Shown here: positions 4,525 to 18,173 of the stretch, in pieces
Numbering within the stretch: position 1 is the stretch's first letter
How the letters are laid out: the number at the start of each line of letters is the position of its first letter
Assembly: GCF_017635265.1 (NCBI RefSeq)
Contig: NZ_JAGBLU010000104.1
Span: 62,001-126,000, forward strand
Reading direction: 5' to 3'
Source of the DNA: Butyrivibrio sp.
GTDB taxonomy: Bacteria > Bacillota > Clostridia > Lachnospirales > Lachnospiraceae
DNA: 64,000 nt
Notes under the pieces: generated by a model
What the model saw: the letters and a program-made list of their open reading frames with translations, nothing else
Told to the model about the DNA's origin: nothing
The model's database searches: none
Made by a program: the position numbers and the translations under genes

Positions 4525-4704
4525 CAACTTGGGAGATATATGGTGGTGGAGTGTGAGTGCGAGTATGGCTTTTGCGGCCTTGAAAAACGCCGGTACTTAG
4601 GTGGCGTTTTTAGGCACCTTAGTACCGCTGCGTTTTTCACGGAGCGAAAGCGTCCGCAAAAACATACTCACACGAACACGACACCCCCATATATCCCCAA
4701 GTTG
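4525..4704. repeat. Near-palindrome of about 180 bp (long hairpin element)
   Basis: The left arm starts CAACTTGGGAGATATATGG at 4525 and the right arm ends CCATATATCCCCAAGTTG at 4704. Going inward, further matched blocks are GGTG/CACC, AGTATG/CATACT, TTTTGCGG/CCGCAAAA, GAAAAACGC/GCGTTTTTC, CGGTACT/AGTACCG and AGGTG/CACCT, with small bulges between. It would fold as one long rod. It lies between a glycosyltransferase and a formyltransferase and encodes no protein of its own. It may be a miniature inverted-repeat element without transposase, or an RNA structure. Confidence 0.8.
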
Positions 4705-4735
4705 TGCTAAAACCCACGAAAGGAGCCACTACCAA

Positions 4736-5671
4736 ATGCACTACAAAGTTGTGGTTTTTGGCGTAAAAGATACGTCAGAGAATATTATAGATTTTATACA
4801 AAGAGAGCTTTGTCCTGTTGACCTTGTTATTACCATTGCACCTAAGGTCACAGAGAAGAATCAGGTCTCAGGATTTAAGGGACTTGGCTTTCTTACAGAG
4901 AAATACGGAATCCCTGTATTTGAAGCAGACAGTTACTTTTTAAATGATGATAAGACTCGAAAATTCATTTCAGGAAATACATTTGACCTTGGTATTGTTA
5001 TGGGATGGCAGAGACTTATTCCAAAAGAAGTTTTAGATGCCTTCAACAGCGGAATATTCGGATTCCATGGCAACTGTGGATATCTTCCCTTTGGAAGAGG
5101 AAGAAGTCCCCTTAACTGGTCAATGATCCTTGGAGATACGAGATTTAATCTTAATCTCTTCAGATATGATGAGCACGCAGATTCACCTAATGTATTTGCT
5201 ACAGAGATGTTCCAGATAAATGAACATGATGATATCAGGACAGCTCAATATAAAAACATGATCTGCTCCAAGAACCTCATCAGAAAACTGGTTAAAACAT
5301 ATTTGGAGAAAGGTACCATTGAAATCCGCACAGATTCTAAGGATTTTGATTCATGGTACAATAAACGTACAGCGGCAGACGGTAAGATAGATTTTCACGA
5401 AAGAACAAGAAACATCTACAACCTTATCCGCGGAGTGGCAGCTCCTTTTCCGGGAGCATTTTGTTATGCAGATAAAGAGGATGATGATCACAAGGTAACA
5501 GTCTGGGAGGCTCATCCTTTTGACGAGATGATAGATTTTTCTGCCTTCGGTCCGGGAGAAATCGTGGACATGTTTGATGGGAAACCGATAGTAAGAACTG
5601 TTGACGGTTCCATCAGAATAGACAGATTTGATAGTAATGTGGAATTATCCACAGGAATGGTACTTAAGTAA
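4736..5671 (+). CDS. Formyltransferase-family protein (probable amino-sugar N-formyltransferase)
   Basis: 311 residues from the ATG at 4736; GAAAGGAG at 4718-4725 supports it. An upstream GTG at 4601 lies inside the long palindrome and is rejected. Seen: the formyl_trans_N core with FGFHGNCGYLPFGRGRSPLNW, equivalent to the HGSLLPxxRGxxPxxW active-site region of Fmt and ArnA (folate-binding, catalytic His), and a C-terminal half with AAPFPGAF and VTVWEA as in Fmt_C. Met-tRNA formyltransferase is usually with def or priA; here all neighbours are glycan genes, so formylation of an amino sugar nucleotide is more likely (inference). Stop and next start are separated by one base. Confidence 0.75.
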   Translation: MHYKVVVFGVKDTSENIIDFIQRELCPVDLVITIAPKVTEKNQVSGFKGLGFLTEKYGIPVFEADSYFLNDDKTRKFISGNTFDLGIVMGWQRLIPKEVLDAFNSGIFGFHGNCGYLPFGRGRSPLNWSMILGDTRFNLNLFRYDEHADSPNVFATEMFQINEHDDIRTAQYKNMICSKNLIRKLVKTYLEKGTIEIRTDSKDFDSWYNKRTAADGKIDFHERTRNIYNLIRGVAAPFPGAFCYADKEDDDHKVTVWEAHPFDEMIDFSAFGPGEIVDMFDGKPIVRTVDGSIRIDRFDSNVELSTGMVLK

Positions 5672-7626: not shown

Positions 7627-9504
7627 ATGTGCGGAATTTGCGGATACATTTCCAAAAACAGAATAAGTGAAGATAATCTGAGGATTATGAACGATACAAT
7701 GATCCATAGAGGACCTGATGATAGCGGAGTATCAGTCTATGAGGACAAGGACGGATATTCAGTGGGACTGGCCCAGAGAAGACTTTCAATTTTGGACCTT
7801 TCGCCATTGGGACATCAGCCGATGCATTCGGTAAACGGCAGAATAACAATTGTTTTTAATGGAGAGATTTACAATTTCCTTGAACTTAAGGAGGAGCTTT
7901 CAGACTATCCATACAAGTCTCATTGTGACACAGAAGTCATAATCGCAGCTTACCTTAAGTGGGGAATAGACATGGTGAATCATATTCACGGAATGTTTGC
8001 CATTGCCATTTACGACAGAGAGACTTCAGATGTCTACCTCATCAGAGACAGGATCGGTAAAAAACCTCTTTTTTACTGGATAGATGGTGAGAATCTTATT
8101 TTTGGTTCTGAACTAAAGCCTATTATGAAGTGCCCGGGTTTTAAGGGAGAAATAAGAACAGATGTTATCTCAAGATACCTTTATCAGCAGTATATAATTG
8201 CTCCTGATACAATATTTAAGGATGTTTATAAACTTGAAGCCGGTGGCGTGTTAAAGTTTCATCTTGGAGAAATAACCAAGTGGAAATACTGGGACGTAAA
8301 AAAGGTCTACGCAGAAAAGTCCGGAGATCAGATTGAGAGCTATGAAGAAGCAAAAGAAGGGTTGAAGCAGCGCCTAAAAAAGGCAGTTGCTGACAGGATG
8401 ATTGCAGATGTACCTCTTGGAACTTTTCTCTCAGGTGGGTATGATTCATCCCTTGTAACAGCTATGGCTCAGGAGTTTTCTGACAAACCTGTCAAAACTT
8501 TCTGTATAGGATTTGGTGTTCCCAGCTACAATGAGGCAGAGTATGCCAAGGAAGTTGCAAAGCATCTTGGATGTGAGCATACTGAGCTTTATATCTCCGA
8601 AAAAGAGATGTTTGATCTGGTGAACAGCATTCCTCAATACTATGATGAACCATTCGCAGACAATTCGCAGATTCCGTCAATGCTTGTAAGTAAGCTTGCA
8701 AAAAAGGATGTAACAGTGGCTCTTTCCGGTGACGGCGGAGATGAGTTTTTCTGTGGATACAATATATACGATAATGTAAGACAGGCTCAGCAGCTGGAAA
8801 TTCCGGGAGCAATAGTTAATGCTATTGGGCAGATTCCCGTGGGAAGTGGCAAGCTTCTTGATAAGATGCCTTTCAGAGTCAGGGTTGTTGCCGGTAACAG
8901 AGACAAAGAGACCAAAACTCAGCTTGTCTCAAAGGGATATATAGATGCAGCAAGAGCCTTTGTACTAGGGGATAAGCAGCCGGTTCTTTTCCCGATAGAG
9001 TCATCTTACGGTGTAAAAGATTTTCAGGTAAGAAGAATGCTTCTTGATATGGATACTTATCTTCCTGATGATATTCTGGTCAAGATGGACAGAGCTTCCA
9101 TGAAGTATTCTCTGGAGAACAGATGCCCTATAATGGACACAGAGGTGATGGAGTATTCCTTCAGGATTCCTCATAAATTCAAATATTTTAATGGCGACAA
9201 GAAGCATATTTTAAAGGATATTGCCTATGACTATATCCCAAAAGAGCTGCTTAATCGTCCAAAGACAGGATTCGGAGTTCCGATGGATCAGTGGCTAAGA
9301 GGTCCGTTAAAAGACCGTCTCATGGACTTTAGCAGTACAAGCTTTTTAAAGAATCAGGGATTATTTGATGCTGATTTCGTATCAAAATTTATCAACAACT
9401 ATGCAGTAAATGGAGATGCAGGTCCCGCCACAGGAGCTAATTTTAGTAAAATAGCCTGGTCATTCTTTATCTTCCAGCAGTGGTATGATTACTACATCAA
9501 TTAG
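7627..9504 (+). CDS. asnB: Asparagine synthase (glutamine-hydrolysing), copy 1
   Basis: 625 residues. Seen: MCGICGY with Cys2 as glutaminase nucleophile, RGPDDSG and the FNGEIYNF block of the N-terminal Ntn amidotransferase domain, then the ATP-pyrophosphatase loop LSGGYDSS near residue 269 and SGDGGDEFFCGY in the synthetase domain. Family role: moves ammonia from glutamine to an activated carboxylate. In polysaccharide loci such enzymes are thought to amidate uronic acids or other acid groups rather than aspartate. Only 13 bases separate it from the carrier protein gene, which hints that its acceptor may be carried on, or belong to, that pathway. A second copy is at 13443. Confidence 0.88.
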   Translation: MCGICGYISKNRISEDNLRIMNDTMIHRGPDDSGVSVYEDKDGYSVGLAQRRLSILDLSPLGHQPMHSVNGRITIVFNGEIYNFLELKEELSDYPYKSHCDTEVIIAAYLKWGIDMVNHIHGMFAIAIYDRETSDVYLIRDRIGKKPLFYWIDGENLIFGSELKPIMKCPGFKGEIRTDVISRYLYQQYIIAPDTIFKDVYKLEAGGVLKFHLGEITKWKYWDVKKVYAEKSGDQIESYEEAKEGLKQRLKKAVADRMIADVPLGTFLSGGYDSSLVTAMAQEFSDKPVKTFCIGFGVPSYNEAEYAKEVAKHLGCEHTELYISEKEMFDLVNSIPQYYDEPFADNSQIPSMLVSKLAKKDVTVALSGDGGDEFFCGYNIYDNVRQAQQLEIPGAIVNAIGQIPVGSGKLLDKMPFRVRVVAGNRDKETKTQLVSKGYIDAARAFVLGDKQPVLFPIESSYGVKDFQVRRMLLDMDTYLPDDILVKMDRASMKYSLENRCPIMDTEVMEYSFRIPHKFKYFNGDKKHILKDIAYDYIPKELLNRPKTGFGVPMDQWLRGPLKDRLMDFSSTSFLKNQGLFDADFVSKFINNYAVNGDAGPATGANFSKIAWSFFIFQQWYDYYIN

Positions 9505-9517
9505 AAAGAGGTTAATT

Positions 9518-9760
9518 ATGACAAGAGAAGAAGTTTTTGAGAAAATGAACGAAGTTTTCAGAGACGTTTTTGAAGATGACGATATCACAGTAACAGATGA
9601 GACAACAGCAGACGACATTGATGATTGGGACTCACTTGAACACATTAATCTGATAAACGCCATGGAACAGGAATTTGATATTAAGTTTACTATGGGTGAG
9701 ATTGTTGGTATGAAGAATGTAGGAGCAATGGCTGACCTTATTATCGCTAAGCTTGGCTGA
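9518..9760 (+). CDS. Acyl carrier protein
   Basis: 80 residues from the ATG at 9518 with AAAGAGG upstream; the longer frame from 9485 overlaps asnB and is rejected. Seen: a four-helix acidic protein with DDWDSLEHINLI, where Ser39 is the phosphopantetheine site, and LIIAKLG at the end. It is not next to fatty-acid genes, so it is a dedicated carrier for a special acyl group. With the FkbH-like protein at 11598 it fits a scheme in which a small hydroxy-acid is loaded onto the carrier. The link to MBOAT at 15413 is inference from position. Confidence 0.88.
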   Translation: MTREEVFEKMNEVFRDVFEDDDITVTDETTADDIDDWDSLEHINLINAMEQEFDIKFTMGEIVGMKNVGAMADLIIAKLG

Positions 9761-9803
9761 TAAAAGCCTTAGTAGTAGAAACAAGCAGGTTTAAGAGGAT
9801 AAA

Positions 9804-10193
9804 ATGAGAGTACACCACATAGGTTATCTGGTAAAAAACATATCAAAAACTGAAAAAAAGTTCCTTGAACTTGGATATGAGATTGAAAGCCCTACGAAGT
9901 TTGATGAGATTAGAAATATTGATATCGAATTTTTGGTAAACGGTGATTACAGAGTGGAGCTTATTGAACCAAAGGGCGAGGATTCTCCAATGTATCCGCT
10001 TCTTAAACGTTACAAAAATACCCCGTATCATCTCTGCTATGAAGTGGAGAACATAGATGATGCCATAAGCGATCTTGGGGATAAACATTATACCGTAATT
10101 CAGGAACCCAATATTGCGTCATGCATTGAAGGTAAGAAAGTAGCTTTTTTGAATAATATCAGCATGGGAATCATAGAGCTTGTGGAAATATGA
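9804..10193 (+). CDS. VOC-family (glyoxalase/epimerase fold) protein
   Basis: 129 residues. Seen: VHHIGYLV at the N-terminus (first metal His), FLVNGDYRVELIEP in the first beta-alpha module, and YHLCYEV and MGIIELVEI in the second, the spacing of methylmalonyl-CoA epimerase-like VOC proteins. Possible roles are epimerisation or isomerisation of an acyl thioester or sugar; the reaction cannot be told from sequence. Position between the carrier protein and FkbH-like genes suggests it acts on the carrier-bound acyl group. A perfect 8-bp inverted repeat (10195-10202/10212-10219) begins one base after its stop. Confidence 0.7.
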   Translation: MRVHHIGYLVKNISKTEKKFLELGYEIESPTKFDEIRNIDIEFLVNGDYRVELIEPKGEDSPMYPLLKRYKNTPYHLCYEVENIDDAISDLGDKHYTVIQEPNIASCIEGKKVAFLNNISMGIIELVEI

Positions 10194-10280
10194 TTCAAAT
10201 CATATATCACCTGATTTGAGATATCTTCAATGTGAGAGCCGGATATAAACTTTTGTTTACATTAGGAGGAATATAGTCCC

Positions 10281-11492
10281 TTGGAGTCAGATAAAAGCAG
10301 TCCAAAACACATTGCAATGTATATAGGCTCCCTTCAAAAAGGCGGTGCCGAAAGAGTCATGTCAAACCTTGCGGATTTCTTTTTTGAGCAGGGCTACAAA
10401 GTGACCTTTGTTACAACATACCTTGCGGACAATGAATATGAAGTTAAGCACGCAGCCTGGAAAAAAGTTCCTGCGGGGGCTCCCGGAGCTGAACTTGTAG
10501 CTGACCTTGATGAGAATCCCGCCTGGATAGATCCAAAAGGTGGAGAAGAAGGTGGAATTGAGCGTGTTTTCTCAGCTCTTTTAAAAAGTGAACAAAAGGG
10601 CAGAGCATACAATCTTCGTATGAGGCACAAAAAGCTTCAGGATATCTGGAAAGAACTTCATCCGGATCTTATCCTGAGTTTTATTGGTAAAAATAATATT
10701 ATGGCACTTTCCACTGCTACCGGCGAGAATATCCCGGTAGTAGTTTCTGTGCGTTCAGATCCCGACAGAGAATATGCATCTTTTTCCATGAAAAGCTCAA
10801 TGCTTGCTCTTTTTGGAAGGGCAGCAGGAGTTGTTGTTCAGTCTCAGGGGGCAAAAGAGAAGTTTCCGGGCTACATACAAAAGAAATGCACCATACTTCC
10901 AAATGCCATAAATCCTTCTTTTATCAGAAAGCGTTATATAGGAGAGAGGGAGAAGAAAATTGTCATGGTGGCAAGGCTTGATGCCAATAAGAATCAGGCA
11001 ATGGTTCTTGAAGCCTTTAAAGAAATTCTTGCAAAAGGCTATAAAGATTACAGTCTTGCATTTTATGGCGATGGTCCGGACAGAATAAAGCTTCAGAACA
11101 TGGCTGTTAAGCTGGGAATAGATAAAAACGTTGAGTTCAAGGGAAGTGTACAGCACGTGGCAGAGCACATTGAAAAGGCATCAATGTTTATTCTTGCTTC
11201 AAAACAGGAAGGTATGCCCAACTCCCTTATTGAGGCCATGTCTTTGGGACTTCCGTGTATTTCCACAGACTGTCCCTGCGGAGGTCCAAGAGAGCTTATT
11301 ACAAACGGAGAAAATGGTATTCTCATACCGGTTGACGATAGACAAGCTCTTGTCAGCTCAATTGAGAAGCTTATTACTGATAAAGACTATGCTGATAAAA
11401 TCGGAAGTGCTGCAGTTAAAATCCAGGAGAAGTGCAGTCCTGATGTGACAAATCAGAAATGGAAAGAATACTTTGATTCTTTAATGCGATGA
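10281..11492 (+). CDS. GT4-family glycosyltransferase (paralogue of the gene at 5673)
   Basis: 403 residues if translation starts at TTG 10281, which has AGGAGGA at 10264-10270 ten bases upstream; an in-frame ATG at 10317 has no such site. Seen: YIGSLQKGGAERVMSNLAD, IVMVARLDANKNQ, KQEGMPNSLIEAMSLGLP and CPCGGPRELI. Compared with the paralogue it carries an extra stretch (about residues 50-95) containing GAELVADLDENPAW and a Gly-Glu-rich loop. It interrupts the carrier-protein/FkbH cassette, so its sugar may be the one that gets acylated (inference). Confidence 0.83.
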   Translation: MESDKSSPKHIAMYIGSLQKGGAERVMSNLADFFFEQGYKVTFVTTYLADNEYEVKHAAWKKVPAGAPGAELVADLDENPAWIDPKGGEEGGIERVFSALLKSEQKGRAYNLRMRHKKLQDIWKELHPDLILSFIGKNNIMALSTATGENIPVVVSVRSDPDREYASFSMKSSMLALFGRAAGVVVQSQGAKEKFPGYIQKKCTILPNAINPSFIRKRYIGEREKKIVMVARLDANKNQAMVLEAFKEILAKGYKDYSLAFYGDGPDRIKLQNMAVKLGIDKNVEFKGSVQHVAEHIEKASMFILASKQEGMPNSLIEAMSLGLPCISTDCPCGGPRELITNGENGILIPVDDRQALVSSIEKLITDKDYADKIGSAAVKIQEKCSPDVTNQKWKEYFDSLMR

Positions 11493-11597
11493 TAACGGAA
11501 GTGTAGGAACGAAAGGCACAAAAAGTCCGTGTTATATACTTTTGATGTTTAAATACAGCACAGAATATATGCGTATTTTGATAAATAGGAGCAAACG

Positions 11598-13394
11598 GTG
11601 AAAGAGTTAGAATATCCCTTTGATAGCAGCTATATAATGAAAAAATCAAAGAGCCTTAAAAAGGCTCTTATTGCTGACGGCACAGACAGAATACATAAAA
11701 AAATCGCAGTACTTGGCGGCTCAACAACCCATGACATTATAAGAATTATGGAGCTGTTTTTGCTTAATTACGGAATTGAGCCTGAATTTTATGAGTCAGA
11801 GTATGGTCAGTATTGGCAGGATGCTATGTTTCCGGGAGAATTATCTGAGTTTAATCCCGATATTATTTACATTCACACATCAAACCGCAATATCAATGAC
11901 TTTCCCACAATGGATGACAGCACTGAGATGGTAGATGAGAAGCTTCAAAAGACCTATCAGCATTTTGAAACTATGTGGAAAAAGCTTTCGGACACATATC
12001 ATTGTCCGATTATTCAGAATAATTTCGAGGCACCATTTTACAGACTTCTTGGGAACAGGGATTTCTTTGATATTCATGGACGCCTTTCATTTATAAACAG
12101 ACTTAACGAAAAATTTGCAGAGTACGCAAGAAAAGCATCAGACTCGGCAGAGAGCTTTTTTATCAACGATATTAATTATATTTCGAGCTGCTATGGACTT
12201 GATCAGTGGTCAGACCCACTTGCATGGCATATGTACAAATACGCCCTTTGCATTCAGGCTATTCCAACATTGAGTTTCAACGTTGCCAACATTATAAAGT
12301 CAATATATGGCAAAAATAAAAAGGGACTTGTTCTCGATCTGGATAACACCCTGTGGGGCGGAGTTGTCGGTGACGACGGTGTAGATGGAATAGAAATCGG
12401 TCAGGAAACCAATCTCGGACAGGTTTATTCAGAGTTTCAAGGTTATGTGAAAATGCAAAAGGACATCGGAGTTCTTTTGACAGTTGATTCCAAAAATGAC
12501 GAAGAAAATGCGATTGCAGGGCTAAATCACCCGGACGGAAAGCTAAAGCCGGATGATTTTGTGGCAATAAAGGCCAACTGGGATCCTAAAAGCGAAAATA
12601 TGAAAGCTATTGCAAAAGAGCTGAATATTCTCCCTGAGTCTTTAGTGTTTGTGGATGATAATCCGGCTGAAAGGGCCATTGTTGAGGGACAGATAAAGGG
12701 AGCGGCAGTTCCTGAAATAGACAGTCCTGAGCACTACATCAGAATCATTGATCATGCAGGATTTTTTGAGGCCACATCGGTATCTGATGATGATAGAAAA
12801 CGCAATGAAATGTATATGGCCAACAAAAAGAGAAATGAACTTGAGGAGAGCTTTGCAGATTATGGCGAATATCTTAAGTCTCTTGAGATGGAGGCAGAGA
12901 TTGCACCGTTTGAGAAAATGTACATGCCAAGAATTGCCCAGCTTACCAATAAGAGCAATCAGTTTAACCTGACAACCAAGCGCTATACACAGGATGACAT
13001 CGAGAAAACTGCCGCAGATGACAGTAACATAACACTTTACGGCAGACTAAAAGATAAATTTGGTGACAACGGAATCGTATCACTTGTTATTGGAAATATC
13101 CGCTCCGGTGCTGAGCTTCACATTGATCTGTGGCTTATGAGTTGTAGAGTTTTAAAGCGCGATATGGAGTTTGCCATGATGGATGCGCTGGTTAAGAAGG
13201 CTTTGGAGCGCGGAGTTAAGACAATTTATGGCTATTATTATCCAACAGCCAAGAACAAGATGGTAAAAGAGTTCTTTGACGGACAGGGCTTTGATCTTGT
13301 GTCTGAGGATGAAGATGGAAACAGGACGTATAAATTGGATTTAAATCAGGAATATACGAATAAAAATAATTTTATAGATGTACATCTTAAATGA
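11598..13394 (+). CDS. FkbH-like HAD-superfamily protein (acyl-carrier loading enzyme)
   Basis: 598 residues from GTG 11598 with TAGGAG upstream. Seen: an N-terminal SGNH/HAD-linker region beginning IAVLGGSTTHD, then the HAD catalytic motif LDLDNTLWGGVVGDDG near residue 245, SKNDEENA, VFVDDNPAER, and a C-terminal GNAT-like region. This is the full FkbH architecture. Known FkbH members take 1,3-bisphosphoglycerate and load a glyceryl group on a carrier protein. With the carrier protein at 9518 this predicts a glyceryl-type or related thioester as precursor for a glycan substituent. Which acid is really used is not shown. Confidence 0.82.
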   Translation: MKELEYPFDSSYIMKKSKSLKKALIADGTDRIHKKIAVLGGSTTHDIIRIMELFLLNYGIEPEFYESEYGQYWQDAMFPGELSEFNPDIIYIHTSNRNINDFPTMDDSTEMVDEKLQKTYQHFETMWKKLSDTYHCPIIQNNFEAPFYRLLGNRDFFDIHGRLSFINRLNEKFAEYARKASDSAESFFINDINYISSCYGLDQWSDPLAWHMYKYALCIQAIPTLSFNVANIIKSIYGKNKKGLVLDLDNTLWGGVVGDDGVDGIEIGQETNLGQVYSEFQGYVKMQKDIGVLLTVDSKNDEENAIAGLNHPDGKLKPDDFVAIKANWDPKSENMKAIAKELNILPESLVFVDDNPAERAIVEGQIKGAAVPEIDSPEHYIRIIDHAGFFEATSVSDDDRKRNEMYMANKKRNELEESFADYGEYLKSLEMEAEIAPFEKMYMPRIAQLTNKSNQFNLTTKRYTQDDIEKTAADDSNITLYGRLKDKFGDNGIVSLVIGNIRSGAELHIDLWLMSCRVLKRDMEFAMMDALVKKALERGVKTIYGYYYPTAKNKMVKEFFDGQGFDLVSEDEDGNRTYKLDLNQEYTNKNNFIDVHLK

Positions 13395-13442
13395 AGCTCG
13401 CATATCTGAAATAAGGAATTATGTGTATTATAAGGACAAAAT

Positions 13443-15356
13443 ATGTGCGGAATAGCAGGACTAATACAGTTTAAGAAAGATACAAAAGAAAATATCCACA
13501 GAATGAACGAGCGAATGCTCCACAGAGGCCCGGATGACGGCGGAATATATATAAGTGATGATGGCAAGGTCGCTTTTGGTCACAGGCGGCTTGCTATTGT
13601 TGACCTTTCAAAGAATGGCGCTCAGCCTATGATTTCACATAGTGGGAAGAGCGTCATTGTTTATAATGGCGAAATTTATAACGCTTCTGATGTGAAAAAA
13701 AGTTTACTTGAAGATGCAGCCTCTAAAGGCGCTGAAATCGGTGCTTTTCGCGGTACATCAGATACAGAGGTTTTAGTTGAGGCCATAGAGCACTTTGGCA
13801 TGAAAAGAGCTCTTTCTTTATGCAAGGGGATGTTTGCCATTGCAGTCTACGATATGGAAAATGGCACAGTTTCTTTTGCCAGAGACAGAGTCGGAGAAAA
13901 GCCTCTCTACTATGGAAATGTGGCAGGTGCTTTTGCTTTTGCATCTGATGTAGGGTGTTTGCGCGTTATTGACGGTTTTGATAATGAGATAGATACTGAT
14001 GTTCTGGACATGTATTTTGAAGAGGGCTATATCCCGGCTCCTTATTCAATCTACAGGGGAATAAAAAAGCTTGAGCCCGGAACAATCCTTAAAGTAAATG
14101 TTGACACACTTGAATGTGAAACAGAAAAGTATTGGTCTATGCAGGAAACTGCAAGGAAGGGGCAGAAGAATAAATTTACCGGAAGCAGGACAGAGGCGGC
14201 AGATGAGCTTGAGAGACTTTTAAAAGAGTCTATTAAAGGGCAGATGGTTGCAGATGTTCCCCTTGGAGCATTCCTTTCGGCAGGAATAGACAGCAGCACC
14301 GTAGTTTCATTGATGCAGTCCATAGCCCCCGGAAAAGTCCGCACCTTTACAATCGGTATGGAGGATGAGAAGTTTAATGAAGCAGTTATTGCCAAAGAAA
14401 TAGCATCTTGCCTTGGAACAGACCACACGGAGCTCTACATAGGGGAGGCTGATGCCAAGGCTGTTATTCCGAAGCTTTCAGCTATGTTTGGGGAACCTTT
14501 TGCAGATTCATCGCAGATACCAACATATCTTGTCAGTAAGATGACAAGAGAACACGTGACGGTTTCTCTTTCAGGTGATGGAGGAGATGAGCTCTTTTGC
14601 GGATATAAGTCCTATAACTCTGTTGCAAGAGTATGGGGCAAGGCTTCAAAAGTTCCATATGCACTCAGAAAGCCGGTAAGTTCCCTTCTTACAAATATTT
14701 ATGGTCTTGACAGTGAGCTTAACCTGAAAAATCCCATGGGCTATGCCAAGGCTCTTTACTTTGGGGCCAAGTCTCCATACGAAGTACATCGAATGGAGCA
14801 TGAGAGCGATCCTCTGATCAAAAAAATTGCACTTAAAGCCGGAAATGCTAAATACAAATGTATGGATCTTCCGGCAGATTTTCTCGGAGAAGTAAATCAC
14901 GAAGCCATGCTTATGGATATGTGCCTTTATCATCCTGACGATATCCTTGTTAAAGTGGACAGAACAGCAATGGCAGTGTCCCTGGAAACGAGAGTACCTA
15001 TGCTTGACAGGGACGTATTGGAATTTGCTTGGAGTCTGCCGATTGAATACCTCAGAAATGACAATCAGGGGAAACTTATTTTGAGGGATGTGTTGTACAG
15101 ATATGTTCCTCGTGATATGATGGAGCGACCAAAAAAAGGATTTTCAATTCCTATTAAGAGCTGGCTCCTTGATAAAGATATAAGAGACTGGGCAGAAGCT
15201 CTTTTGGATAAGGATAAAATCAGGCAGCAGGGACTTCTGAACCCTGATGTTGTAGAGAAAATCTGGACAGATTTCACAGAGCGTGGGATTTATCGTGTAC
15301 AGATATGGTACATTCTGATGTTCCAGCAGTGGTATGAAAGTGATTATTTACAGTGA
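13443..15356 (+). CDS. asnB: Asparagine synthase (glutamine-hydrolysing), copy 2
   Basis: 637 residues. Seen: MCGIAGL with Cys2, HRGPDDGG and VYNGEIYNA in the glutaminase domain, FLSAGIDSSTVV as the ATP loop (Ala in place of the second Gly seen in copy 1) and SGDGGDELFCGY. The C-terminal ERPKKGFSIPI block is conserved. The pair of AsnB-type enzymes in one glycan locus suggests two different carboxyl acceptors, or an amidation step and an acyl-transfer step. It follows the FkbH-like gene by 48 bases and precedes the acyltransferase, so it belongs to the same transcription unit. Confidence 0.87.
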   Translation: MCGIAGLIQFKKDTKENIHRMNERMLHRGPDDGGIYISDDGKVAFGHRRLAIVDLSKNGAQPMISHSGKSVIVYNGEIYNASDVKKSLLEDAASKGAEIGAFRGTSDTEVLVEAIEHFGMKRALSLCKGMFAIAVYDMENGTVSFARDRVGEKPLYYGNVAGAFAFASDVGCLRVIDGFDNEIDTDVLDMYFEEGYIPAPYSIYRGIKKLEPGTILKVNVDTLECETEKYWSMQETARKGQKNKFTGSRTEAADELERLLKESIKGQMVADVPLGAFLSAGIDSSTVVSLMQSIAPGKVRTFTIGMEDEKFNEAVIAKEIASCLGTDHTELYIGEADAKAVIPKLSAMFGEPFADSSQIPTYLVSKMTREHVTVSLSGDGGDELFCGYKSYNSVARVWGKASKVPYALRKPVSSLLTNIYGLDSELNLKNPMGYAKALYFGAKSPYEVHRMEHESDPLIKKIALKAGNAKYKCMDLPADFLGEVNHEAMLMDMCLYHPDDILVKVDRTAMAVSLETRVPMLDRDVLEFAWSLPIEYLRNDNQGKLILRDVLYRYVPRDMMERPKKGFSIPIKSWLLDKDIRDWAEALLDKDKIRQQGLLNPDVVEKIWTDFTERGIYRVQIWYILMFQQWYESDYLQ

Positions 15357-15412
15357 AAGACAAAATATATTTGTTTTTCACCATAAAATAATAAGATTTT
15401 AGTGAGATTTTT

Positions 15413-17008
15413 ATGGGAATTACTTCGTTCAGCTTTTTGATATTTTTCATAGTGACAGTTGCTTTTTATTATACTGTTCCTCTGTTGTTTAAAGGAGGAC
15501 AGTGGGTGGTACTTTTAATTGCAAGTATTATCTATTACCTTTTATCAGGTAACGGAGTGCTTATTTTGTATCCGCTCTTTGCATCCCTGGCTACATGGGG
15601 ATTATTAAAGGCATTAAAGAAAGTATCAGGGAGTGCAGATGGAAAATCGGATGATACTGCCGCCAAAAAAAGAAGAATTGTTCTTTTGCTTGAACTTGCA
15701 GCTCTTCTTGGTATTTTAATAGCTTTAAAATATACTAAGCTGATCCATGGGGGAAGCATAGCAACACCGCTTGGACTTTCCTTTTATACATTTATTCTTC
15801 TGGGATATTTCATAGAAGTATACAACGGTCTTACAGATTCCAATGAGAGCTTTTTTAAGACGGTACTCATAGGAATGTATTTTCCCGTAATGATCTCCGG
15901 TCCGATTTTTCAGATAAGAGAAACCGGAAAACAGTTTTTTGAAAGACACAGGCTCGATTATAAAAACATCACCTTTGGCGCTCAGCGAATGCTCTGGGGA
16001 TTTTTTAAGGAGCTTGTTATTTCAGAGAGACTTGCTGTTGTAGTAAATACAATTTACAACAATGATACCGCATATCCAGGCGCTTATATAATGCTTGGAA
16101 CAGTGGGATTTGCCCTCCAGCTCTACACCAACTTCTCAGGTTGTATGGATATAGTAATCGGAGCATCGCAGTGCTTTGGAATTATTCTTCCTGAGAACTT
16201 TACAACTCCGTTTTTTGCCCGGAGTATCAGCGAATATTGGAGAAGATGGCACATTACTCTTGGTGTCTGGATGAGAGAAAATGTCTTTTATCCACTTCTT
16301 AGAACCGGGATGATCACTAAACTTGGCAAGACACTAAAGGGCAGGTTTGGTAAAAAGAAGGGTAAGCAGTACACCACATATGTGGCAATGTTTATTCTCT
16401 GGTTTTCAGTAGGCTTGTGGCATGGCGGAGAGATGAAGTATGTCATCGGATCAGGTCTTCTTCACTGGGCATATATTGTAATCGGCGAGATATCGCTTCC
16501 GTTTTTCACATGGCTTTTTGCCGAAAAAATGCACATAAATATGAAAGGGAAATTTGCTGACTGTGTAAGAGTAGTGCGTACATTTATCCTTGTATGCATA
16601 GGTGATCTGTTCTTTAGGGCAGATAATGTTCCTCACGCACTTCGCATGTTAAAAGAAAGCGTTACGGTTTTTAATCCTCAGATTTTTGTGGATGGAAGTC
16701 TTTTGAATCTGGGTATAGATATAGTTGATTGGGGAATTATCCTTGTTTCACTTGTAATTCTTACCTGCGTATCGGTTATGCAGTACAAAATGGAGAATGG
16801 CAAGGCAGTACCTAAGGCAGACGGTGATTCAAAGAATGAAAGAACTTCCAAAAAAGTTTCGGATTTTTGTAATGTCCGCGAGTATATTGCTGAAAGACCA
16901 ATAGTACTTAGATGGTTCATCTATATGGCGTTTTTGTTCATGGTCATTCTCATTGCTGAGTATGGCCCCGGATACAGCGCTGCGGAGTTTATATACAAGG
17001 ATTTTTAA
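15413..17008 (+). CDS. MBOAT-family membrane O-acyltransferase (DltB/AlgI-like)
   Basis: 531 residues with about 10-12 hydrophobic segments. Seen: SEYWRRWHITLG and FWSVGLWHGG-type core (here WFSVGLWHGG, catalytic His337) as in DltB, AlgI and PatA. Family role: passes an acyl group from a cytoplasmic carrier through the membrane to a polymer outside. The next gene is an SGNH-type anchored protein, the usual partner. With an acyl carrier protein and FkbH homologue upstream in the same run, the donor is likely that dedicated carrier thioester rather than acetyl-CoA (inference). Confidence 0.85.
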   Translation: MGITSFSFLIFFIVTVAFYYTVPLLFKGGQWVVLLIASIIYYLLSGNGVLILYPLFASLATWGLLKALKKVSGSADGKSDDTAAKKRRIVLLLELAALLGILIALKYTKLIHGGSIATPLGLSFYTFILLGYFIEVYNGLTDSNESFFKTVLIGMYFPVMISGPIFQIRETGKQFFERHRLDYKNITFGAQRMLWGFFKELVISERLAVVVNTIYNNDTAYPGAYIMLGTVGFALQLYTNFSGCMDIVIGASQCFGIILPENFTTPFFARSISEYWRRWHITLGVWMRENVFYPLLRTGMITKLGKTLKGRFGKKKGKQYTTYVAMFILWFSVGLWHGGEMKYVIGSGLLHWAYIVIGEISLPFFTWLFAEKMHINMKGKFADCVRVVRTFILVCIGDLFFRADNVPHALRMLKESVTVFNPQIFVDGSLLNLGIDIVDWGIILVSLVILTCVSVMQYKMENGKAVPKADGDSKNERTSKKVSDFCNVREYIAERPIVLRWFIYMAFLFMVILIAEYGPGYSAAEFIYKDF

Positions 17009-17030
17009 TTCAAAGAGTAATAAATAATTT

Positions 17031-18173
17031 ATGACTAAAAAACAAGTTGCAAAAATTTTGATTTTTATATTGATCGTCTTGTGGCTTCTTGTGCATGTGA
17101 CTTACTGCATAAGGACTAATGGTGATGTTAAAGACAGATTTGTGGGCTTTTATTCCGAGAAAGATAATACAATTGATGCTGTGATTATTGGATCAAGCCC
17201 GGTATATCCATGCATTGCCGGTCCTATGATTTACGGTGATATGGGAATTACCCTGTATCCGCTGGCATCAAATATGCAAAGACCTGTTGCCACTAAATAT
17301 CTTGTGGAAGAGGCATTAAAGACCCAGAGTCCCGATCTTTTCATTTTTGAAATGCGCATGTGGACAGCAGAGGATGAAAATCTACTTGGAAATATGGCGC
17401 ATACAAGAGAAGTTACAGATAATATGAAGTATTCACTCAATAGGATAAAAACCATAAATGCCATGGTTGAGGATCCTTCAGAGAGGCTTTCTTATTATTT
17501 TGATATTTTTAAGTATCACTCAAACTGGAAAACACTCGCTCTATGGGAGCAGCTGCGAACCTTTACATATGAATATCCCGATGATTATAAGGGATTTGTA
17601 CCGTTTTCAACGGTTGGACCTGCACCAAAGACAAATAACGCCGCTATAACGGAAAGAGAGGCCATTCCTGCAGAACAGGAGGAGTACTTAACAGATCTTT
17701 TGGCTTATCTAAAAGAGAAAAACTTAAATGCGTTATTTGTCATCACTCCATATGATGTTCAGGAGGATGAACAGAAAAAGATAAACTATATCAGTGATAT
17801 GGTTACGGCTGCAGGTTATAACTTCCTTGATATGGATCAGTATGTGGATGAGATTGGACTTGATTATGATGTTGACTTTAAAGACTATGGTACTCATACC
17901 AATATCGTAGGAGCCTACAAGGTCACAAGGTTCTTTGAAGAGTATTTAAAAGAGAACTATGTTGATAAGGGAACTTTTGGATTGGCTGACAGTATGAGCA
18001 AAAACATGGAAAGTGGAAAAAGTTCAAATTATAATGACCATCGCGGAGATTCAAAATATAAATCCTGGGATGATGCCTATAACCTCTGGCTTGAAGCCTA
18101 TGAAAAGGGAAGTGAAGAAGTCTTTTATAACGCTGAAAACGGAATTTATTATGACCTTGAGGAAGGCGAGTAA
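17031..18173 (+). CDS. Membrane-anchored SGNH-hydrolase-like protein (AlgJ/DltD-type partner)
   Basis: 380 residues. An N-terminal membrane segment (about residues 9-27) anchors it with the body outside. Seen: VIIGSSPVYP near residue 52, carrying the Gly-Ser-Ser of SGNH-like enzymes, and DYGTHTNIVGAYKVT near residue 285, giving the Asp-x-x-His pair. The C-terminus is rich in charged residues. It begins 23 bases after the MBOAT stop. MBOAT plus an extracytoplasmic SGNH-type protein is a known acylation module for alginate, D-alanyl teichoic acid and peptidoglycan. A hairpin and promoter follow, so it likely ends this transcription unit. Confidence 0.72.
   Translation: MTKKQVAKILIFILIVLWLLVHVTYCIRTNGDVKDRFVGFYSEKDNTIDAVIIGSSPVYPCIAGPMIYGDMGITLYPLASNMQRPVATKYLVEEALKTQSPDLFIFEMRMWTAEDENLLGNMAHTREVTDNMKYSLNRIKTINAMVEDPSERLSYYFDIFKYHSNWKTLALWEQLRTFTYEYPDDYKGFVPFSTVGPAPKTNNAAITEREAIPAEQEEYLTDLLAYLKEKNLNALFVITPYDVQEDEQKKINYISDMVTAAGYNFLDMDQYVDEIGLDYDVDFKDYGTHTNIVGAYKVTRFFEEYLKENYVDKGTFGLADSMSKNMESGKSSNYNDHRGDSKYKSWDDAYNLWLEAYEKGSEEVFYNAENGIYYDLEEGE

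Follow-up and report, generated by a model that had tools for sequence, protein, structure and literature searches.

A probable FkbH-charged carrier protein feeding an MBOAT/SGNH-type acylation cassette in a glycan locus of Butyrivibrio sp.

A stretch of 64,000 nucleotides of the genome of Butyrivibrio sp. (assembly GCF_017635265.1, contig NZ_JAGBLU010000104.1, positions 62,001 to 126,000; hereafter the window) contains a gene run that probably encodes a carrier-protein-fed acylation cassette for an exported glycan. The core of this cassette consists of an FkbH-type protein, an acyl carrier protein (ACP), an MBOAT acyltransferase and a membrane-anchored SGNH-like protein, with a VOC metalloenzyme as an optional component (Table 1). 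The two asparagine synthase-type amidotransferases of the same run, AsnB1 and AsnB2, are assigned to the glycan backbone. The cassette was recognised by its gene content, its motifs, its conserved linkage and its recurrence across phyla. A preliminary description of positions 7627..18173 had proposed that a glyceryl or related hydroxy-acyl thioester is made on the carrier, is perhaps amidated by the AsnB enzymes, and is transferred to the glycan. All the genes that it named were indeed found as open frames on the + strand, each at its place, and its assignment of Ser39 as the carrier serine agrees with the likely start at 9518 of the ACP frame (9485-9760), from which the DSL serine of DWDSLEHI is residue 39.

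A first line of evidence consists of conserved linkage. A survey of FkbH proteins in the same bacterial family (Lachnospiraceae) yielded 90 matches in 77 of 397 genomes at an E value of 1e-40. Sixty FkbH regions, namely 44 of the 45 best matches from genomes other than that of the window (at least 46% identity) and 16 hand-picked ones of the other 44, were compared with 19 control regions around UDP-sugar dehydrogenase genes located away from FkbH in ten FkbH-bearing genomes. Contig ends cut some regions, two of the 60 and three of the 19 being shorter than 10 kb. An ACP gene was present within 10 kb of FkbH in 55/60 regions and near none of the controls (Fisher test, p 5e-14), an MBOAT gene in 39/60 versus 2/19 (p 4e-5), and a gene for a MaoC protein (Pfam PF01575) in 16/60 versus 0/19 (p 0.009). 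Twelve of these 16 regions also contained an SDR gene (PF13561). VOC and MaoC genes never occurred together near FkbH in the 60 regions (p 0.006 for exclusion). The p values of the Fisher tests and of this exclusion ignore the relatedness of the genomes. The profiles used in the comparison with the controls were built partly from FkbH regions, and single-sequence queries returned identical counts for ACP, MBOAT, MaoC and AsnB. The carrier and FkbH genes are hence retained with MBOAT in relatives, as the preliminary description had expected, both here and, within 5 kb, in the more distant loci described below.

The ACP-MBOAT unit is kept where FkbH does not adjoin. Among 67 MBOAT hits in 80 regions of the family, 22 were preceded by an ACP gene on the same strand within 600 bp, including those of the regions L093, L094, L096 and L097. 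Region L094 contained the operon as found in the window without FkbH and VOC, and L093 an ACP-MBOAT-SGNH unit beside unrelated genes, FkbH being located elsewhere in both genomes; L096, an ACP-MBOAT pair without adjoining FkbH, lies on a contig of just 3.5 kb. Furthermore, 20 regions had been selected because they contain a strong MBOAT with no FkbH next to it. In ten of them the MBOAT belongs to the FkbH-type clade (32 rows), and nine of the corresponding genomes contain an FkbH gene, versus one for the ten regions whose MBOAT lies outside that clade (p 0.001, from hand-made counts). Three of the ten in-clade regions lie near contig ends, where an adjacent FkbH is possible; the regions so placed are L095, L096 and L101. 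In a tree of 67 MBOAT rows, the window protein belonged to a supported clade of 13, all FkbH- or ACP-linked, nested in a larger set of 31 rows; 26 of these have such a link.

A second line of evidence is the recurrence of the cassette in other phyla. Forty Sinorhizobium records were matched, of which one annotated region, on pSymB of Sinorhizobium meliloti (L114; CP140883.1), was examined in full; it contains a row of five genes, for VOC, MBOAT, an anchored protein called SGNH-like, ACP and FkbH. The C-terminus of this MBOAT reads FLYQGF. Its partner is annotated as a TonB-dependent receptor and has no Pfam match; GGS and DPGH motifs are the reason for the name SGNH-like. SMb20651 was considered as the ACP of this cassette and dropped, as passages of the literature associate it with a gene for an acyl-CoA ligase. 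At least 562 relatives were confirmed, and the best 80 named loci, ranked against the S. meliloti FkbH, span Alphaproteobacteria, Stutzerimonas, Paraburkholderia, Nitrospina, Acidobacteria and Planctomycetota, among others. In these best 80 loci, ACP was present within 5 kb of FkbH in 74 and MBOAT in 45, the latter within 600 bp in 27 and with a C-terminal FXYXXF in 38. VOC (9/80) and MaoC (11/80) were located within the same distance, again never together. Two Nitrospina-type loci (L128 and L129) contained the VOC form and the MaoC plus SDR form, respectively, each followed by MBOAT. A related methyltransferase was found near FkbH in 14/80 loci, 11 of them with MBOAT (the family being assigned by Pfam for three); it shares five loci with VOC and two with MaoC.

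The proteins themselves fit these assignments. The FkbH-type protein of the window displays the features of its family, namely the domain above the model cut-off, the HAD motif DLDNTLWGG with Asp247 and Asp249, and a partner ACP in the same gene run; it matches the solved structure 3slr. Asp247, Asp249 and Cys516 (in MSCRVL) are identical in 60/60 aligned FkbH proteins, the window protein included, and Cys516 is presumably the residue that carries the glyceryl group. In the VOC protein, H5, E52, H76 and E125, which we take to be metal ligands, are kept in 16-17 of 17 aligned proteins, a fragment of 49 residues among them. Its best NCBIfam model is that of methylmalonyl-CoA epimerase (TIGR03081), at 58 bits and below the cut-off of 115. 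The MBOAT protein matches solved DltB (E 7e-18) and scores 129 bits with the DltB model TIGR04091, below its cut-off of 375. As in PatA-type proteins, an FXYXXF motif stands at its C-terminus (FIYKDF, at the very end), and a motif of this type occurs within the last 40 residues of 56/66 other MBOATs examined. The protein encoded at 17031-18173 returned no match in Pfam and NCBIfam, nor a significant one in a profile search of solved structures. It is called SGNH-like on account of a GSS motif with Ser56, together with Asp282 and His289 (alignment of 23 proteins), of a partial match (63%) between the profile of its family and two sequences of DltD, with E 7e-5 for one template, and of its place beside the MBOAT gene. 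A member of this SGNH-like family adjoins 21/67 MBOAT frames in the 80 family regions.

The pathway can be outlined as follows, every chemical step being predicted. Firstly, FkbH would take D-1,3-bisphosphoglycerate, remove its phosphate and load the D-glyceryl group on the phosphopantetheine of Ser39 of the ACP, as expected from the chemistry of its family. Secondly, the VOC protein may possibly act on the alpha-carbon of the acyl group while this is bound to the carrier, perhaps converting D- to L-glyceryl. Thirdly, glyceryl-ACP would dock at the cytosolic side of the MBOAT, and the acyl group would pass to the tyrosine of FIYKDF, by analogy with Dlt and PatA. Lastly, the tyrosine would hand it over to Ser56 of the SGNH-like partner in the membrane, which would attach it as an ester to a hydroxyl group of the exported glycan.

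Parts of this scheme have counterparts in known systems. According to passages of a 2025 paper (PMC12148441), the Dlt system for D-alanylation of teichoic acids (DltABCDX) passes a carrier-protein thioester through an MBOAT to a tyrosine hexapeptide and an SGNH protein, as proposed for the window; PatA/PatB, which O-acetylates peptidoglycan, works through the tyrosine of a C-terminal FXYXXF on PatA and takes acetyl-CoA; and MBOAT/SGNH pathways other than Dlt are said to have no similar carrier protein. The window differs from Dlt in its loader, FkbH instead of DltA, in its predicted acyl group, glyceryl instead of D-alanine, and in the hexapeptide, which is fused to the MBOAT C-terminus instead of residing on DltX. 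In the genome of the window, which is 88% complete, no protein exceeded the cut-off of the DltA model TIGR01734 (best 303 versus 560 bits) and none matched DltD (PF04914). That best score belongs to a frame of 3051 residues with three adenylation-type matches (contig C128, L233-L235), apparently a nonribosomal peptide synthetase. The window resembles PatA/PatB in the fused C-terminal motif; PatB is a separate SGNH partner, and its counterpart in the window would be the anchored protein directly downstream of the MBOAT, with its GSS and Asp/His motifs. It departs from PatA/PatB in the ACP and its loader beside the MBOAT. The presence of a carrier protein at this place argues for a donor other than acyl-CoA.

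FkbH proteins that load glycerate on an ACP are known from FK520, tetronates and vioprolide. In those polyketide and nonribosomal peptide pathways the FkbH-ACP pair is the same; the predicted acceptor of the acyl group in the window is instead a membrane MBOAT in a glycan locus, and the window frames scanned included neither a polyketide synthase nor a peptide synthase. Passages of PMC6519341 describe wfp genes of Flavobacterium psychrophilum with a dedicated ACP as the predicted source of a hydroxy-acyl group for the O-polysaccharide; there, fatty-acid-type enzymes are predicted to make the acyl group and a nucleotide sugar to receive it. An fkbH-domain gene of Campylobacter jejuni is mentioned in a flagellar glycosylation region (PMC7099621). 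Among the papers listed from the PMC open-access literature, which covers no bioRxiv preprints and few subscription papers, none links FkbH and MBOAT in acylation of the envelope; a single listed paper contains both words, and its passages concern aeruginosin peptides. As the passages of PMC12148441 deny pathways other than Dlt a similar carrier, the proposed arrangement looks like a new variant, in which the MBOAT is of PatA type and its carrier receives glyceryl from FkbH instead of being charged by DltA.

Several observations weigh against this interpretation. No MBOAT gene was found within 10 kb of FkbH in 21/60 family regions, some of them cut by contig ends, and 35 of the best 80 loci had none within 5 kb; therefore the product of FkbH, glyceryl-ACP, clearly has uses besides export by MBOAT. 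The excess of VOC near FkbH is not significant (15/60 regions by single query, 16/60 by profile, versus 2/19 controls; p 0.21), and in two genomes VOC sits in another glycan locus. In addition, the MBOATs linked to FkbH do not form a single clade, FkbH-ACP being adjoined by several lineages, so that the tree rejects a single origin. Their clustering is modest: the tree requires 18 changes, the mean after shuffling is 22.7, and a value as low was reached in 14 of 500 shuffles. Scores with the DltB model fail to distinguish them from unlinked MBOATs (113-153 versus 150-170 bits), and this score was dropped as a marker of carrier use, unlinked proteins scoring as high. The SGNH assignment is at the level of motifs, and a query with the window SGNH-like protein did not match the S. 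meliloti partner. Lastly, region L097, whose MBOAT belongs to the FkbH-type clade, contains ACP-MBOAT beside a phosphate acetyltransferase gene, with no FkbH in that genome at E 1e-40.

Some of these regions merit separate mention. In L097 (5042-8905), the phosphate acetyltransferase gene is next to the ACP-MBOAT pair, and its product perhaps takes the place of FkbH in loading the carrier for this type of export. In the two genomes with VOC elsewhere (G003, L210:4202; G107, L213:14595), a close VOC relative heads a glycan locus with UDP-sugar dehydrogenase, and their FkbH regions contain no VOC. Three regions (L077-L079) contain, after FkbH-ACP, an MBOAT of about 400 residues without the C-terminal motif, and in L077 and L078 a gene named nucleotidyltransferase-like from its sequence lies downstream of FkbH-ACP-MBOAT.

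An alternative explanation is two unrelated decorations side by side, FkbH-ACP serving a cytosolic N- or O-acyltransferase and the MBOAT/SGNH pair adding plain acetyl from acetyl-CoA. This is in line with the frequency of FkbH without nearby MBOAT, with a Niveispirillum locus in which FkbH-ACP lies beside a WcbI-type acyltransferase, and with the acetyl-CoA donor that passages of PMC12148441 give for PatA, a non-Dlt MBOAT. We consider it unlikely in view of the ACP genes within 600 bp upstream of MBOAT, also where FkbH is not adjacent, of the strong excess of ACP and MBOAT over control glycan loci, and of the same gene set on pSymB. As another alternative, export by MBOAT/SGNH may proceed as proposed with another small hydroxy-acid on the carrier, such as lactyl, derived from glyceryl-ACP. 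Indeed, MaoC and SDR could turn glyceryl into lactyl, as in the lactyl-loading module of bryostatin, and such genes accompany FkbH in part of the family. For the window this is doubtful, since among its frames scanned around FkbH no MaoC or SDR was found and VOC is present instead.

The amidation step of the preliminary description, by which AsnB would give the carrier-bound acyl group, and hence the glycan, a carboxamide, is very improbable: AsnB2 does lie between the FkbH and MBOAT genes of the window, and in L034 and L094 the cassette is flanked by AsnB genes, but AsnB was found within 10 kb of FkbH in 2/60 family regions and 3/80 of the best loci, it occurs in 3/19 controls, and two regions contain the AsnB pair without the cassette. 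The AsnB genes were accordingly rejected as part of the acyl cassette, and of the earlier interpretation the FkbH-charged carrier feeding MBOAT/SGNH is what stands.

The AsnB genes probably belong to the glycan backbone locus. In L215 and L217, from relatives of one genus, they are direct neighbours in a locus with UDP-sugar dehydrogenase, and no FkbH, ACP or MBOAT was found in the 20 kb fetched around them. Genes for an aminotransferase, a dehydrogenase, a formyltransferase, glycosyltransferases, AsnB1 and AsnB2 are shared between these loci and the glycan locus of the Butyrivibrio genome. Therefore the acyl cassette looks like a module set into a glycan locus, and the likelier substrate of AsnB is a uronic acid of this glycan, which would give a uronamide. 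The sole UDP-sugar dehydrogenase match above the cut-off in the 88% complete genome lies just upstream of the window. Such a gene is located within 20 kb of 4/4 AsnB-bearing cassettes versus 3/9 others (p 0.07, from hand-made counts), which is suggestive only. The window contains many glycosyltransferase genes. A formyltransferase-like gene (4601-5671), present in L094, L210, L213, L215, L217 and L218 as well, suggests an N-formyl sugar.

Table 1. Features of the acylation cassette and adjoining genes in the window
Feature	Position	Strand	Assignment and evidence
AsnB1	7627..9504	+	Glutamine-dependent amidotransferase; TIGR01536, 466 bits (cut-off 267)
ACP	9518..9760	+	Acyl carrier protein; PF00550, 25.6 bits (cut-off 20.8)
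Ser39 of ACP	9632-9634	+	Predicted phosphopantetheine site
VOC	9804..10193	+	Metalloenzyme, methylmalonyl-CoA epimerase-like; PF13669; proposed on-carrier epimerase
GT4	10281..11492	+	Glycosyltransferase, glycan backbone; PF00534, 132 bits
FkbH	11598..13394	+	HAD phosphatase/acyltransferase; TIGR01686, 282 bits (cut-off 146.65); proposed glyceryl-ACP synthase
AsnB2	13443..15356	+	Glutamine-dependent amidotransferase; TIGR01536, 443 bits (cut-off 267)
MBOAT	15413..17008	+	Acyltransferase; PF03062, 47 bits
FIYKDF	16988-17005	+	Acyl-shuttle hexapeptide fused at the MBOAT C-terminus; sequence motif
SGNH-like protein	17031..18173	+	Membrane-anchored; Ser56, Asp282, His289; proposed last transferase

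If the proposed carrier-fed cassette is correct, MBOAT transfer from a carrier is not limited to D-alanine, and polyketide starter chemistry is joined to the decoration of the cell surface. The MaoC plus SDR, methyltransferase and VOC genes near FkbH fit a carrier-bound glyceryl group, and the acyl group seems to be reworked on the carrier in other loci. With moderate confidence, the window may represent a widespread and hitherto undescribed class of envelope acylation, in which 1,3-bisphosphoglycerate, an intermediate of glycolysis, gives glyceryl-ACP by FkbH, variants are made from it (epimerised by VOC, lactyl by MaoC and SDR, O-methylated by the methyltransferase), and a PatA-type MBOAT with its SGNH partner passes them to exported glycans in several phyla. 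The cassette may account for acidic decorations of bacterial sugars to which no genes have been assigned. For instance, L-glycerate occurs on gellan (cited in passages of PMC4432689) and glyceroyl on the nonulosonic acid of Tannerella, the responsible gene of the latter being called elusive in 2018 (PMC6120980); among the papers listed in literature searches, none gave a gene set for adding glyceryl groups to glycans outside the cell. Only the FkbH-ACP half might apply to Tannerella, because the group is N-acyl there. If correct, the proposal would also provide a testable gene set, present in S. meliloti. A second FkbH domain, finally, is encoded elsewhere in the Butyrivibrio genome, in a frame of 1281 residues (C80:170276-174121; L204:6277-10122) that also contains a glycosyltransferase-like stretch. 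It scored 147.8 and 143.7 bits in two scans, on either side of the cut-off of 146.65, and adjoins a protein weakly matching PseD of flagellin modification (35.7 bits, far below cut-off).

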